DNA from: Candidatus Uhrbacteria bacterium
Lineage (GTDB): Bacteria > Patescibacteriota > Patescibacteriia > UBA9934 > UBA11717
NCBI GenBank assembly: GCA_018701105.1
Contig: JABIWD010000004.1
Span: forward strand, 1 to 46,955
DNA: 46,955 bases
Direction: 5' to 3'
Shown: positions 996 through 20,539 of the stretch, piece after piece
How the letters are laid out: the number at the start of each line of letters is the position of its first letter
Numbering within the stretch: the stretch's first letter is position 1
Made by a program: the position numbers and the translations under genes
Notes under the pieces: model-generated
Told to the model about the DNA's origin: nothing
Databases searched by the model: none
Seen by the model: the letters and a program-made list of their open reading frames with translations, nothing else

Positions 996-1024
996 TTGAC
1001 ATCGACCCTGAGAGCTGTTGTAAT
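996..1024 (+). promoter_or_regulatory. sigma70-type promoter of tRNA-like RNA copy 1 (TTGACA-N17-TGTAAT)
   Basis: TTGACA 996-1001, 17-bp spacer, TGTAAT 1019-1024; flanks (CCTATCCCCAACGACCC...GAGCTGTTGTAATAGAAGCA) nearly identical to copy 2. Confidence 0.75.
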
Positions 1025-1028
1025 AGAA

Positions 1029-1207
1029 GCAGCCTTGTGAGGTTTAAGACCTCCAAATTCAGGGTGGCGACAAATTACCTCCCCATTATTCGTCTCATTG
1101 AGATGAACGGGGAGGTTTTTGTATCTCATGGGCCCGTGGAGGTAATGGTAACCTTGCATGGTTTGCCACCCTGAGTCGCGGATTCGATTCCCGCCGGGTC
1201 CATGAGG
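1029..1207 (+). ncRNA. putative novel tRNA-like ncRNA, copy 1 (leader hairpin, antisense segment, terminator-like hairpin, tRNA-like 3' domain)
   Basis: tRNA-like domain 1130-1202: acceptor GGGCCCG/CGGGTCC, T-loop TTCGATT, D-like arm GAGG...CCTT, no normal anticodon loop; leader TTCAGGGTGGC (1058-1068) complementary to GCCACCCTGAG (1165-1175). Confidence 0.65.
1077..1120 (+). terminator. terminator-like hairpin inside the RNA copy 1 leader
   Basis: ACCTCCCC(1077-1084)/GGGGAGGT(1109-1116) plus inner TCGTCTC/GAGATGA, followed by TTTTT. Confidence 0.5.
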
Positions 1208-1218
1208 GTTTAACCTAT

Positions 1219-1242
1219 AAAAAAGCCGTAGCAAGTGCTACG
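1219..1242 (-). terminator. Rho-independent terminator of the 1238-1582 gene
   Basis: minus strand CGTAGCACTTGCTACGGCTTTTTT. Confidence 0.6.
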
Positions 1243-1582
1243 ACGATGTGCGGAAACGACCGAGAATGCCGGAACCAAACGACAAGAGTCCGAGCCAGAA
1301 CCATGCGACCACGATCACGAGCGCGCCCACTGGCATCACGTCGTACTGAACGAGATGAACGAGCACGATGAAGAAAGACAATGGCGCGGTGTAATAGCCC
1401 GTGCCAAAGATCGACGCCATCACCCAGACCAAGATCACTTTTCCGAATCCCGTCTCGCTCAATTGCATCGAAGTCTCACGGTCGCCGATCAAGAGTCCGG
1501 CCGCCATGAGCCCCGTTGCCCACATGATCCCGAACGTATACAGAAACTGCCACCACTCAACCGAAGAAGAATCGTAAAACAT
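1238..1582 (-). CDS. hypothetical small multi-pass membrane protein
   Basis: ORF from MFYDSSSVEWWQFLY with SD GGGGGAG; 3-4 hydrophobic segments. Confidence 0.6.
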   Translation of the reverse strand: MFYDSSSVEWWQFLYTFGIMWATGLMAAGLLIGDRETSMQLSETGFGKVILVWVMASIFGTGYYTAPLSFFIVLVHLVQYDVMPVGALVIVVAWFWLGLLSFGSGILGRFRTSS

Positions 1583-1647
1583 GACTCCCCCTTTCAACGC
1601 AAACATAACAATACATCGCTATAAAGTCAACCTATCCCCAACGACCC

Positions 1648-1676
1648 TTGACACCAACCTCGCGAGCTGTTGTAAT
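1648..1676 (+). promoter_or_regulatory. sigma70-type promoter of tRNA-like RNA copy 2 (TTGACA-N17-TGTAAT)
   Basis: TTGACA 1648-1653, 17-bp spacer, TGTAAT 1671-1676. Confidence 0.75.
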
Positions 1677-1680
1677 AGAA

Positions 1681-1862
1681 GCACGCAGGTGAGGAATTAC
1701 TTCCAAATCCTTGTTGACGACAATACACCTCCCCAATTTGTTGGGTGAGGTGTATTTGTTTTGAAACCCCAGTGGACCCTGGGCCCGTGGTGGTAATTGG
1801 TAACCTCACTTGCATCGTCAACAAGGGTCGCGAGTTCGAATCTCGTCGGGTCCACCACTGGG
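1681..1862 (+). ncRNA. putative novel tRNA-like ncRNA, copy 2
   Basis: tRNA-like domain 1781-1857: GGGCCCG/CGGGTCC, T arm GCGAGTTCGAATCTCGT, encoded ACCA; leader TCCTTGTTGACGA (1708-1720) complementary to TCGTCAACAAGGG (1815-1827); leader hairpin TACACCTCCCCAA/TTGGG-T-GAGGTGTA. Confidence 0.65.
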
Positions 1863-1910: not shown

Positions 1911-3437
1911 ATGCCTATGCGCACATCGATTATTCCGATTTTATTCAGTCTGTTTCTTATCCCTGGGCTCGCCTCTGCAGCTTCAGTTGATACGGACAGT
2001 TTCACCGTCGACGTCACCGAGACGAACGGTAAGCTCGAGTTTTCTGTTGAACTTCGAGATGTTGAGCCCGAGCCGACGGTGGAGATTAGCGTCGAGCCAC
2101 CTTCAACAGAAGATATCGAATCAGTCATTGGACCCGAGCTACATTCCGGATCCCCTGGTGACATCTTGATCAACGAGTTTGTCTCTGATCCCGTAACTGG
2201 AGATGAAGAATGGATAGAGCTGTATAACACGACTTCGCAGTCCATAACTCTAACGGAGTGGTACTTAATAGATGGCTCGGACAAGAAAACTATGCTCGAG
2301 GGAACGCTGGAGCCCCGTTCATATATGGTGATCCATTCACCAAAAGGCGTTCTAAATAACGGAGGAGATGTGATCGAACTCTATGATGCATTCTCGGCAC
2401 AGATCGACGAGGTCGCTTACGGTTCATGGGACAATGCCACAGCTCCAAAGGCATCTGATCCGGAATCTGTTGGACGAGATCCTGATCAGGAGGAGATGTT
2501 CGTGATCATGACGCCTACTCCGGGCGCAGTGAACGTAACTACAGAGACTGTTGAGGCTGCTACGAGTGATACTTCAGTCGAGACAGATGACGATACCAGC
2601 AATACTGAAACCGACACTACAGATGAACAAGTTAGCGACCATGATTCAACAACGGGCGACTCAACAACGTGCACTCCAGCGGAAGAAGACGCTGGTGATG
2701 CTTCGGACGTTGCAGGCCCACAGTTTGTTGAGCTCGCGAATATCCGCGGACTCGCACTTGAGACCGAGCTCGCGACAGAAGGAATCGTTTCCGCAGTACC
2801 AGGAGTACTCGGAAAGCAAGTATTTTACCTTGCAGGATCTGGAATCCAGGTTTACCTGCACAGCTCCGAGTTCCCGCAGCTTGAACGTGGAACACGTGTG
2901 CATGTAGAAGGCGAACTACGGGAGTCTTCGGGCGAGTCGCGCATAAAATTGGACGATGCATCAGACATTCAGATTCTGAGCATGGAAGATGCGCCCACTC
3001 CACACGACATCACAACTGCCGAGATCGGCGAGGCTACGGAAGGATGGCTCGTACGACTAACAGGAATGGTTTCGGAGCGCTCATCTGGCGACTTTTACTT
3101 GGAGGACAGCAACGGAGAAGCTCGCGTGTTTATTAAAGACTCAACGGGCATCGCAAATACAACCGAGGTCGGTGATGAGATCACCGTAACTGGAATCGTA
3201 AGCGAAACTCGATCCGGATATAGGATCCTGCCACGTGATCAAGAGGATCTATTGCCACGAGTTGCTACAGAGGATAGCTCAGACCTACTCGCAATGGGAT
3301 CAACAAGCTCAAACTCACCGAGCGCACTCGGAGGATGGGTGCTTGCATCAGCCGCAGTGCTTGGACTCACGACAGCGGGACTTGTATCTGCAAAAAAGAG
3401 AGGTGCGAAATGGAATAAGTCACCACAAACTGCTTAA
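1911..3437 (+). CDS. secreted lamin-tail-domain (LTD) plus OB-fold-like protein with C-terminal TM anchor
   Basis: Signal peptide MPMRTSIIPILFSLFLIPGLASA; LTD motif ILINEFVSDPVTGDEEWIELYNTTSQSITLTEWYL; OB-like repeats; C-terminal hydrophobic segment then KKR. Confidence 0.7.
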   Translation: MPMRTSIIPILFSLFLIPGLASAASVDTDSFTVDVTETNGKLEFSVELRDVEPEPTVEISVEPPSTEDIESVIGPELHSGSPGDILINEFVSDPVTGDEEWIELYNTTSQSITLTEWYLIDGSDKKTMLEGTLEPRSYMVIHSPKGVLNNGGDVIELYDAFSAQIDEVAYGSWDNATAPKASDPESVGRDPDQEEMFVIMTPTPGAVNVTTETVEAATSDTSVETDDDTSNTETDTTDEQVSDHDSTTGDSTTCTPAEEDAGDASDVAGPQFVELANIRGLALETELATEGIVSAVPGVLGKQVFYLAGSGIQVYLHSSEFPQLERGTRVHVEGELRESSGESRIKLDDASDIQILSMEDAPTPHDITTAEIGEATEGWLVRLTGMVSERSSGDFYLEDSNGEARVFIKDSTGIANTTEVGDEITVTGIVSETRSGYRILPRDQEDLLPRVATEDSSDLLAMGSTSSNSPSALGGWVLASAAVLGLTTAGLVSAKKRGAKWNKSPQTA

Positions 3438-19055: not shown

Positions 19056-19088
19056 AAACACCGCGGGCTCGCGGTGCGTTTTTTTTAT
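19055..19088 (+). terminator. Rho-independent terminator
   Basis: CACCGCGGGCTCGCGGTGCGTTTTTTTT. Confidence 0.7.
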
Positions 19089-20539
19089 TTAAGTTGGTCG
19101 ATCATGTGTTCAATCTTCTCAATGTGCATCACGTTCGGTTTGTCTATCAATCGCGTAATAATATCGTCACGACTCAGCCCATGCTCGTCATGCAGCTCGT
19201 TCGCCGCTCTGATAATGAGACCAAAATGTGGTCCCGGTTTAAATCCCATCTTAATCAGCTCCCGACCGCTGATAACGTCCTGCGGCGGCGCCCTGTCGAT
19301 CCCAAGATCTCGCGCGCGATCCAAAAACCACTCAGTCGCATCCGTGTTCTTGCCGACAAACCCTTCTGGGAACGGTCCGCGCCCCTTTGTGTCCGCCTCT
19401 GCGACCCATGTGAGCATCTCAATATTGGACGGCTTCAGTTTTCGTGCCAAGTTTCTAAATCCCCCATCGCTAAACGCTTCGTCCGTGTCTCGTTTCTTCC
19501 AACATGGATACGGATACATGTGAAACTTCACCAAAGGCTTCACTGAATCGACAAATTTATCTAATCCCATCGCACCCAACATAGATTTCACACGCAAACA
19601 ACCAGCTGCCGGATGCCCAGGTGACCTAATGCGGCCCTCGACGGTCTTAGTAGTCTCCGGCTTTCCGCAATCATGACAAAATCCTCCAAGAACGAGCGTA
19701 AGCCGCGCATCATCGTCGAGCTCCTCGCGCTCCGCTATCAATACCGCCTCATCAGTCACCCACATCGTATGAGCCCAGACCGAACCCTCCGGATGCCACT
19801 CAAATTCCTGCTTAGTGTCTACCATATCCTGCACCAACGGCATGTCTTCCGCAAAAACTCCGATGCGGTAAGCAAGGTCGAGCCCGATCGATGGCTTTTG
19901 TGCTTTCAAAAATAGTTTACGCCACTCCGTTCGCTTACGATCGATTGAAAGCTCATGCAATTGAGAGCTCATCGACTTCATCAAAGCCTCGGTAGTCTCG
20001 TCAACGGTGAGCTCGAGCCTCCCCGCCAGCTGAACTCCACGCAAGACGCGCAAGGGATCCTCGCCAAAAGTTTGCTTGTCTACGATCCTAAGTAACCTCT
20101 TGTCGAGATCGACACGTCCACCGTAAGGATCATGGACTGTCCCATCGAGCATATCCTCCAACATCGCATTGATCGTAAAGTCCCGACGCCTCAAAGCATC
20201 CTCAATGCTCATATTCGGATCAACGTTCACATCAAACCCCTTATGCCCCGCCCCAATCTTAGAATCCTTCCGCGGTAACGAGATATCTACATCCATGTCT
20301 TCCACATGTGTATGCAGAACACCAAATGCGGTCCCCATTTCCTTCACTTCCTTAAAATGGGATTCAACAATAACCTTAAGGGCCTTCGCTTCCACGCCAT
20401 GTACCTCAATATCAATATCTTTTGCTTCGATCTCAAGAATCCGATCCCGAACAGTCCCGCCAACAAAATAAGCGCGACCTTTATTAAGCCACACAGTCTC
20501 AGCGAATGCTTTGAGTTGTGATTCGATAGCAGTGTTCAT
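19085..20539 (-). CDS. cca: CCA-adding tRNA nucleotidyltransferase with HD domain
   Basis: AYFVGGTVRDRILEIEAKDIDIEVHG; RRDFTINAML; HD-type FCHDCGKPETT. Confidence 0.9.
   Translation of the reverse strand: MNTAIESQLKAFAETVWLNKGRAYFVGGTVRDRILEIEAKDIDIEVHGVEAKALKVIVESHFKEVKEMGTAFGVLHTHVEDMDVDISLPRKDSKIGAGHKGFDVNVDPNMSIEDALRRRDFTINAMLEDMLDGTVHDPYGGRVDLDKRLLRIVDKQTFGEDPLRVLRGVQLAGRLELTVDETTEALMKSMSSQLHELSIDRKRTEWRKLFLKAQKPSIGLDLAYRIGVFAEDMPLVQDMVDTKQEFEWHPEGSVWAHTMWVTDEAVLIAEREELDDDARLTLVLGGFCHDCGKPETTKTVEGRIRSPGHPAAGCLRVKSMLGAMGLDKFVDSVKPLVKFHMYPYPCWKKRDTDEAFSDGGFRNLARKLKPSNIEMLTWVAEADTKGRGPFPEGFVGKNTDATEWFLDRARDLGIDRAPPQDVISGRELIKMGFKPGPHFGLIIRAANELHDEHGLSRDDIITRLIDKPNVMHIEKIEHMIDQLK

Follow-up and report, generated by a model that had tools for sequence, protein, structure and literature searches.

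What would a bacterium do with a tRNA-shaped RNA that carries the identity signals for alanine and no anticodon that can be decoded? The question is raised by two tRNA-like elements in a 46,955-nt stretch of DNA from a Candidatus Uhrbacteria bacterium (assembly GCA_018701105.1, contig JABIWD010000004.1, positions 1 to 46,955; hereafter the window). Its phylum, the Patescibacteria, consists of tiny, mostly uncultured bacteria, and the genome that holds the window is 894 kb long and 96% complete. A preliminary description had noted the alanine identity of both elements, and overlooked the promoter, leader and terminator-like hairpin that lie upstream of each, the complementarity between leader and anticodon arm, and with them the unusual traits of the locus. 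Taken together, as read from comparison of relatives, these parts form a conserved two-part locus in which the G3:U70 pair is invariant and the leader coevolves with the anticodon arm. Our preferred reading, held with even confidence, is that each unit encodes a non-decoding tRNA mimic that can be alanylated and is controlled by its cognate antisense leader.

The pair G3:U70 is the identity element of alanyl-tRNA synthetase (AlaRS), the tag by which a tRNA is loaded with alanine. As the preliminary description stated, the acceptor GGGCCCG/CGGGTCC places G3 opposite U70 in both tRNA-like elements, A73 follows, and CCA is encoded by copy 2 (1855-1857) and not by copy 1. The Rfam tRNA model (RF00005, gathering score 29) scored copy 1 at 37.5 bits and, in a search of the whole genome, copy 2 at 35.4 bits. 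Ordinary annotation would miss both copies, because ARAGORN calls neither of them in the window. In the cloverleaf of 19 relatives, 52 pair changes were double-sided, compared with 11 in shuffled alignments, and in 86 relatives there were 325 compared with 67, with 97.1% of the cells of the larger alignment paired. Since double-sided changes far exceed those in shuffles, the predicted cloverleaves of the window are not due to chance. The elbow residues T8, G18, G19, TTC, A58 and C61 were near invariant among the 86 aligned units. The D stem of the family has up to five pairs (GAGGU/ACCUC), compared with four in the ordinary tRNA-Ala of the same genome.

To collect relatives, a covariance model (R1) built on the tRNA-like part was run on 73 genomes of the window's order, Candidatus Uhrbacteria, where units scored 64-97 bits and ordinary tRNAs no higher than about 62 bits. 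The 3:70 pair was G-U in all 86 aligned units, and in every sequence of the 19-relative alignment as well. Pairs 1:72, 2:71 and 3:70 were essentially fixed, while the neighboring pairs 4:69, 5:68, 6:67 and 7:66 had both sides changed in 14, 17, 33 and 24 units, respectively, and position 73 was A in 84 of 86. Because R1 itself contained G3:U70, the 73 genomes were searched again with a second model (R3) that left out the acceptor stem, and among the ten extra candidates that it returned, all those with an intact acceptor carried G3:U70. Two sequences (L283 and L284) read G:C at 3:70; they keep the promoter, leader and 5' half of the tRNA-like element, but its 3' half, with the T arm and the 3' acceptor strand, is gone, and by this loss they are decayed copies. 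Neither the 86 aligned units nor the R3 candidates included an intact homologue with another 3:70 pair, and of the 32 distinct ordinary tRNAs that the window's genome encodes, tRNA-Ala(UGC) alone carries G3:U70. The argument from AlaRS identity thus gains strong support from the conserved pair, A73, the intact elbow and the uniqueness of the tag to the host's tRNA-Ala.

The enzymes needed for charging appear to be present. A nucleotidyltransferase gene at 19085-20539, which had been put forward as a CCA-adding enzyme, is backed as a candidate by Pfam domains (PolyA_pol head and RNA-binding). Within the window's order 67 of 81 members encode CCA, and the lack of CCA in copy 1 is no special family trait. 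One AlaRS gene was matched in the genome (G000:C53, L287:332-2134, minus strand). Its open frame of 600 amino acids matches positions 1-439 of the 552 in the Pfam core; E. coli AlaRS has about 876 amino acids. The C-terminal region may therefore be shortened in this organism, which would bear on how the tRNA elbow is recognized here.

The second part of the argument concerns what precedes the tRNA-like element. Each unit consists, in order, of a promoter (P1), a leader hairpin, a hairpin resembling an intrinsic terminator (T1), an outer stem and the tRNA-like cloverleaf, and this order is seen again in the relatives. Of 92 units, 89% had a P1 score of 9 or more out of 12, compared with 13% of shuffled sequences, and the promoter spacing was 17 in 74 units. 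A T run (at least 6 T in 8) followed the T1 hairpin in 88 of 89 units, and leaders folded on themselves with a mean of -10.2 kcal/mol, compared with -6.5 kcal/mol for shuffles.

The two strands of the leader hairpin, A and B, match the anticodon side of the unit's own tRNA-like element (sites A' and B'). In unit 2, the loop and 3' anticodon strand TCGTCAACAAGG (1815-1826) are complementary at every position to the B strand CCTTGTTGACGA (1709-1720), and the A strand GCAGGTGAGG (1685-1694) complements CCTCACTTGC (1804-1813) with one G-U pair. In unit 1, B TCAGGGTGGC (1059-1068) complements GCCACCCTGA (1165-1174) exactly, with a sequence quite unlike that of unit 2. Over the 92 units, eight positions of B were 95-100% paired, with GC, CG, AT and TA present at each of them. 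Across 11 positions of B, the paired fraction was 0.898 with the unit's own arm and 0.634 with the arms of other units. The A strand likewise covaries with the 3' strand of the D stem and the 5' anticodon strand (0.818 paired with its own, 0.576 with other units). B starts at a median of 70 nt upstream of the tRNA-like element. In genomes with several copies, 63 of 65 leaders had their best fit with the tRNA-like element of the same unit and not with one of its paralogues. By pairing energy the own partner ranked first in 40 of 83 rows, with a median rank of 1, while two ordinary tRNA-Ala controls showed no such rank, standing at 59 and 21. Extended and specific complementarity kept by covariation, which characterizes an antisense pair, is found in this family.

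The anticodon loop has the form expected at such a contact. Positions 33-39 of the 86 aligned units read U-U-G-N-C-A-C, with U33 in 85, a purine at 35 in 84, C37 in 78 and A38 in 85, and U33 together with R35 makes a UNR U-turn. Loops with a YUNR U-turn are described as ubiquitous where antisense RNAs start pairing loop to loop (PMC4485353).

We suggest the following course of events. A short leader RNA would be made from P1, fold into the A/B hairpin and end at T1, where most transcripts would stop. Read-through of T1 would yield the tRNA-like RNA, which in some relatives outside the order may instead come from an extended -10 promoter of its own. This second product has a complete upper tRNA half, with the AlaRS-identity acceptor, the D/T elbow, the T arm, A73 and usually CCA, and it would mature, gain or keep CCA and be alanylated, and be unable to decode. 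Its U-turn loop would then kiss the single-stranded end of the leader (GUGNCA-type), and the contact would extend through A:A' and B:B' and unfold both the D stem and the anticodon arm. The leader would in this way be a dedicated and specific antisense inhibitor of an alanyl-tRNA mimic. As to why the mimic is kept, we can offer only a guess, namely a pair akin to toxin and antitoxin, or a regulator of some alanine-linked process.

Several observations weigh against this proposal. A scan of the window with consensus patterns flagged neither P1 nor T1, and T1 may be structural rather than a terminator. A second promoter before the tRNA-like element was seen 10 times over all units with 8.4 expected, which is not significant; in several units outside the window's order, the sequence is suggestive of one. 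The A and B sites were picked by best complementarity, and the absolute pairing is inflated for that reason, although the same best-site search against foreign arms reached only 0.769. Since A:A' and B:B' cross (in the order A, B, A', B'), forming both together would need a kinked or four-way geometry. Moreover, the stem part of A:A' follows automatically from keeping the leader hairpin, the anticodon stem and B:B', leaving its D-stem part as the only independent evidence for A:A'.

Foremost among the alternatives is a self-controlled attenuator, where the tRNA-like RNA acts in trans, binding the nascent leader before T1 and altering its own termination as feedback, in the manner of antisense-RNA transcription attenuation or of a T-box that senses its own tRNA. 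The B strand directly precedes T1, the U-turn loop is of the kind found in antisense control systems (PMC4485353), and in most members of the order no promoter is seen between T1 and the tRNA-like element, which implies that read-through is needed. Nevertheless, an antiterminator formed by A and the 5' arm of T1 was not seen, as A matches the T1 arm of its own unit no better than those of other units (the own arm had a median rank of 48 of 89), and the 5' flank complementary to the CCA end comes after T1, unlike in T-boxes, where it comes before. We consider this explanation possible, though unlikely. A second alternative is that the unit is one long structured RNA, in which A:A' and B:B' would form in cis as a pseudoknot that keeps the tRNA-like part inactive until it is processed. 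The adjacent, co-oriented halves and the outer stem joining both sides of the tRNA-like element suit this idea, but the T-run hairpin lies between the halves in 88 of 89 units, and crossing helices without a linker between A' and B' would be strained, making it distinctly improbable.

The loop itself bears on a third alternative, a missense tRNA that would read NCA codons and place alanine at serine, threonine or proline codons. Positions 34-36 are usually U-G-N, with U33, U34 and G35 common and N36 variable, as this would require. However, tRNAs have a purine at position 37, where 78 of 86 units have C, and 31-39 are often unpaired, giving most members a 9-nt loop and not the 7-nt loop with U33 and a purine at 37 that is used for decoding. 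Because of C37 and the 9-nt loop, the loop is unlikely to decode in most members, and it changes together with the leader upstream and not with a codon. We judge missense decoding very unlikely, and the earlier statement that the anticodon is not decodable is supported. The broader proposal in the preliminary description, that of a non-translational aminoacylated RNA, is partly supported, namely as regards alanine identity and a non-decoding loop, and charging itself is a prediction. That the units are ordinary or decaying tRNA-Ala genes which have G3:U70 by descent is hardly credible, since the tRNA-Ala-like acceptor and the occasional remnants (L283, L284) are outweighed by double-sided changes in all four helices, an invariant 3:70 beside variable pairs 4-7 and covariation with the leader, which indicate selection on the RNA, and by a loop that is no alanine anticodon loop.

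A mimic paired with an antisense leader shares single traits with several known systems. Transfer-messenger RNA (tmRNA; SsrA, RF00023) also has an alanine-type acceptor with G3:U70 and A73, a T arm, CCA and no usable anticodon, but the tRNA-like elements described here are contiguous, 77 nt long, and without a tag reading frame or a P2/pseudoknot body. The window copies scored 28.6 and 23.9 with the tmRNA model, below its cut-off of 47, and a canonical tmRNA (119 bits) is encoded elsewhere in the genome, and we therefore reject a tmRNA or split tmRNA. The pseudo-tRNA tRNAOther of Bacillus cereus is likewise a tRNA-like element outside translation, reported within a larger RNA, but the available portion of that report describes neither an antisense leader nor a dispersed family with a covarying leader (PMC3399842). 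T-box riboswitches share a 5' leader with a terminator and pairing to a tRNA anticodon loop, whereas in our units the partner is their own non-decoding tRNA-like element, the pairing far exceeds a codon in length and extends to the D stem, and downstream there is no amino-acid gene, no conserved gene at all and random orientation. The units had no match to T-boxes in Rfam, nor, judged by the pairing of A with the T1 arm, did they show an antiterminator that competes with the terminator and binds the NCCA end of a tRNA. Plasmid antisense pairs (CopA/CopT and pT181-type attenuators) have hairpins with a U-turn loop, coevolving specificity and a terminator beside the binding site, but here the partners lie in tandem on the same strand, one of them is a tRNA mimic and there is no replication gene. 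No Rfam family matches the whole unit and the open-access full-text literature yielded no description of it, and within that limited search the family appears new, each of the nearest systems sharing one trait and failing another.

About 100 units were collected, from Candidatus Uhrbacteria and from scattered relatives elsewhere in Patescibacteria. Within the window's order they occur in 38 of 73 genomes, with as few as one and as many as eight or nine units in a genome, and covariance-model searches did not find them in the other 35; strict-pattern matches in named genomes were nearly all Candidatus Uhrbacteria. Outside the order, the models mix in ordinary tRNA-Ala near 60-70 bits, and for this reason only units checked by eye and for leader pairing were counted. 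Such units were seen elsewhere in the class, in further orders (L142, L145, L147, L150, L153, L156 and L213-L215), and beyond the class in two genomes of the same phylum (L220 and L225). No neighboring gene is conserved, as 287 flanking open reading frames fall into 227 clusters, and the unit is thus a stand-alone RNA locus. Downstream genes lie on the same strand in 41 cases and on the opposite strand in 39. Without a shared neighbor, and with this random orientation, a role as cis-regulator of an adjacent gene was rejected. Phage and plasmid records contained no match, nor did IMG/VR when searched with two strict patterns, which would miss divergent units; a phage or plasmid origin is unsupported. 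The nearest relative lay in the same genome for only 12 of 65 units and usually in another genome, and several units retain the same neighboring genes between genomes, which together argue against recent transposition.

If alanylation is confirmed, these units would represent an aminoacylated RNA outside ordinary decoding, distinct from tmRNA, whose antisense control coevolves copy by copy, and they would offer a testable handle on such uses of aminoacyl-RNA and on how RNA regulation works in Patescibacteria. Several mimic copies with matching leaders persist in genomes that, at about 1 Mb, have lost most pathways. More tentatively, and with somewhat less than even confidence, we propose that Patescibacteria have a class of RNA-only modules, in which a mimic that decodes not at all or wrongly, together with its cognate antisense leader, would form a protein-free switch, toxin-antitoxin-like or regulatory, acting on the translation machinery, with many specific pairs in one reduced genome. 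With ARAGORN calling neither copy and Rfam giving no more than a weak tRNA hit, units of this kind may be labeled pseudo-tRNAs or overlooked.

The features of the two window units, which are 69% identical over about 215 bases starting at the promoter, are collected below. A third copy in the same genome is at G000:C25:5544-5620 on the minus strand.

Features of the two units, in window coordinates; promoters were read from the sequence, and T1 hairpins and the unit 1 outer stem from sequence and predicted fold
Feature	Position	Strand	Details
P1, unit 1	996-1024	+	TTGACA 996-1001, 17 nt, TGTAAT 1019-1024
Leader hairpin, unit 1	1032-1069	+	A strand about 1032-1044, small hairpin, B strand TCAGGGTGGC 1059-1068; predicted fold -11.1 kcal/mol
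T1, unit 1	1077-1120	+	terminator-like hairpin ACCTCCCC...GGGGAGGT, then T run
Outer stem 5' strand, unit 1	1125-1129	+	CTCAT, partner ATGAG 1202-1206
tRNA-like 1	1130-1202	+	G3:U70, A73 at 1202, then TGAGG; no encoded CCA
B', unit 1	1165-1174	+	anticodon loop and 3' strand GCCACCCTGA; exact complement of leader 1059-1068
P1, unit 2	1648-1676	+	TTGACA 1648-1653, 17 nt, TGTAAT 1671-1676
Leader hairpin, unit 2	1685-1720	+	A strand GCAGGTGAGG 1685-1694; B strand CCTTGTTGACGA 1709-1720
T1, unit 2	1725-1763	+	terminator-like hairpin ACACCTCCCC...GGGTGAGGTGT, T-rich tail
Outer stem 5' strand, unit 2	1768-1775	+	CCCAGTGG, partner CCACTGGG 1855-1862
tRNA-like 2	1781-1857	+	G3:U70, A73 at 1854, encoded CCA 1855-1857
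A', unit 2	1804-1813	+	D-stem 3' strand and anticodon 5' strand; complements leader A
B', unit 2	1815-1826	+	loop and anticodon 3' strand; complements leader B

In both copies the flanks lengthen the acceptor stem (1125-1206 and 1768-1862), with sequences that differ between the copies, and these extensions may interfere with 5' and 3' processing. Outer stems paired at -19.7 kcal/mol with their own partner, compared with -16.0 kcal/mol with those of other units. Members of the window's order have this stem in place of the CCA-complementary 5' flank of relatives outside it, where a UGGUGGACC-type flank is complementary to the 3' end of the acceptor in the same unit (mean -15.8 kcal/mol, compared with -5.6 kcal/mol for shuffled flanks). 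In L147, L150, L153, L214 and L225, UGGUGGACC or UGGUGGAG stands directly before the tRNA-like element, complements its own CCA end and changes with the acceptor. Judged by these pairings, outer stem and flank look like two ways of masking the 3' end of the precursor.

The T1 hairpins of L077, L112 and L135 (units of G066 and G046) are interrupted by long insertions with CAACTCCC...GGGAGTTG-like ends, which look like small inverted-repeat elements lodged inside the terminator loop. The gene 3' of unit 2 (1917-3437) encodes a lamin-tail domain and an OB-fold domain, and in the sister genome G001 a unit (L071) precedes a homologue of this gene.
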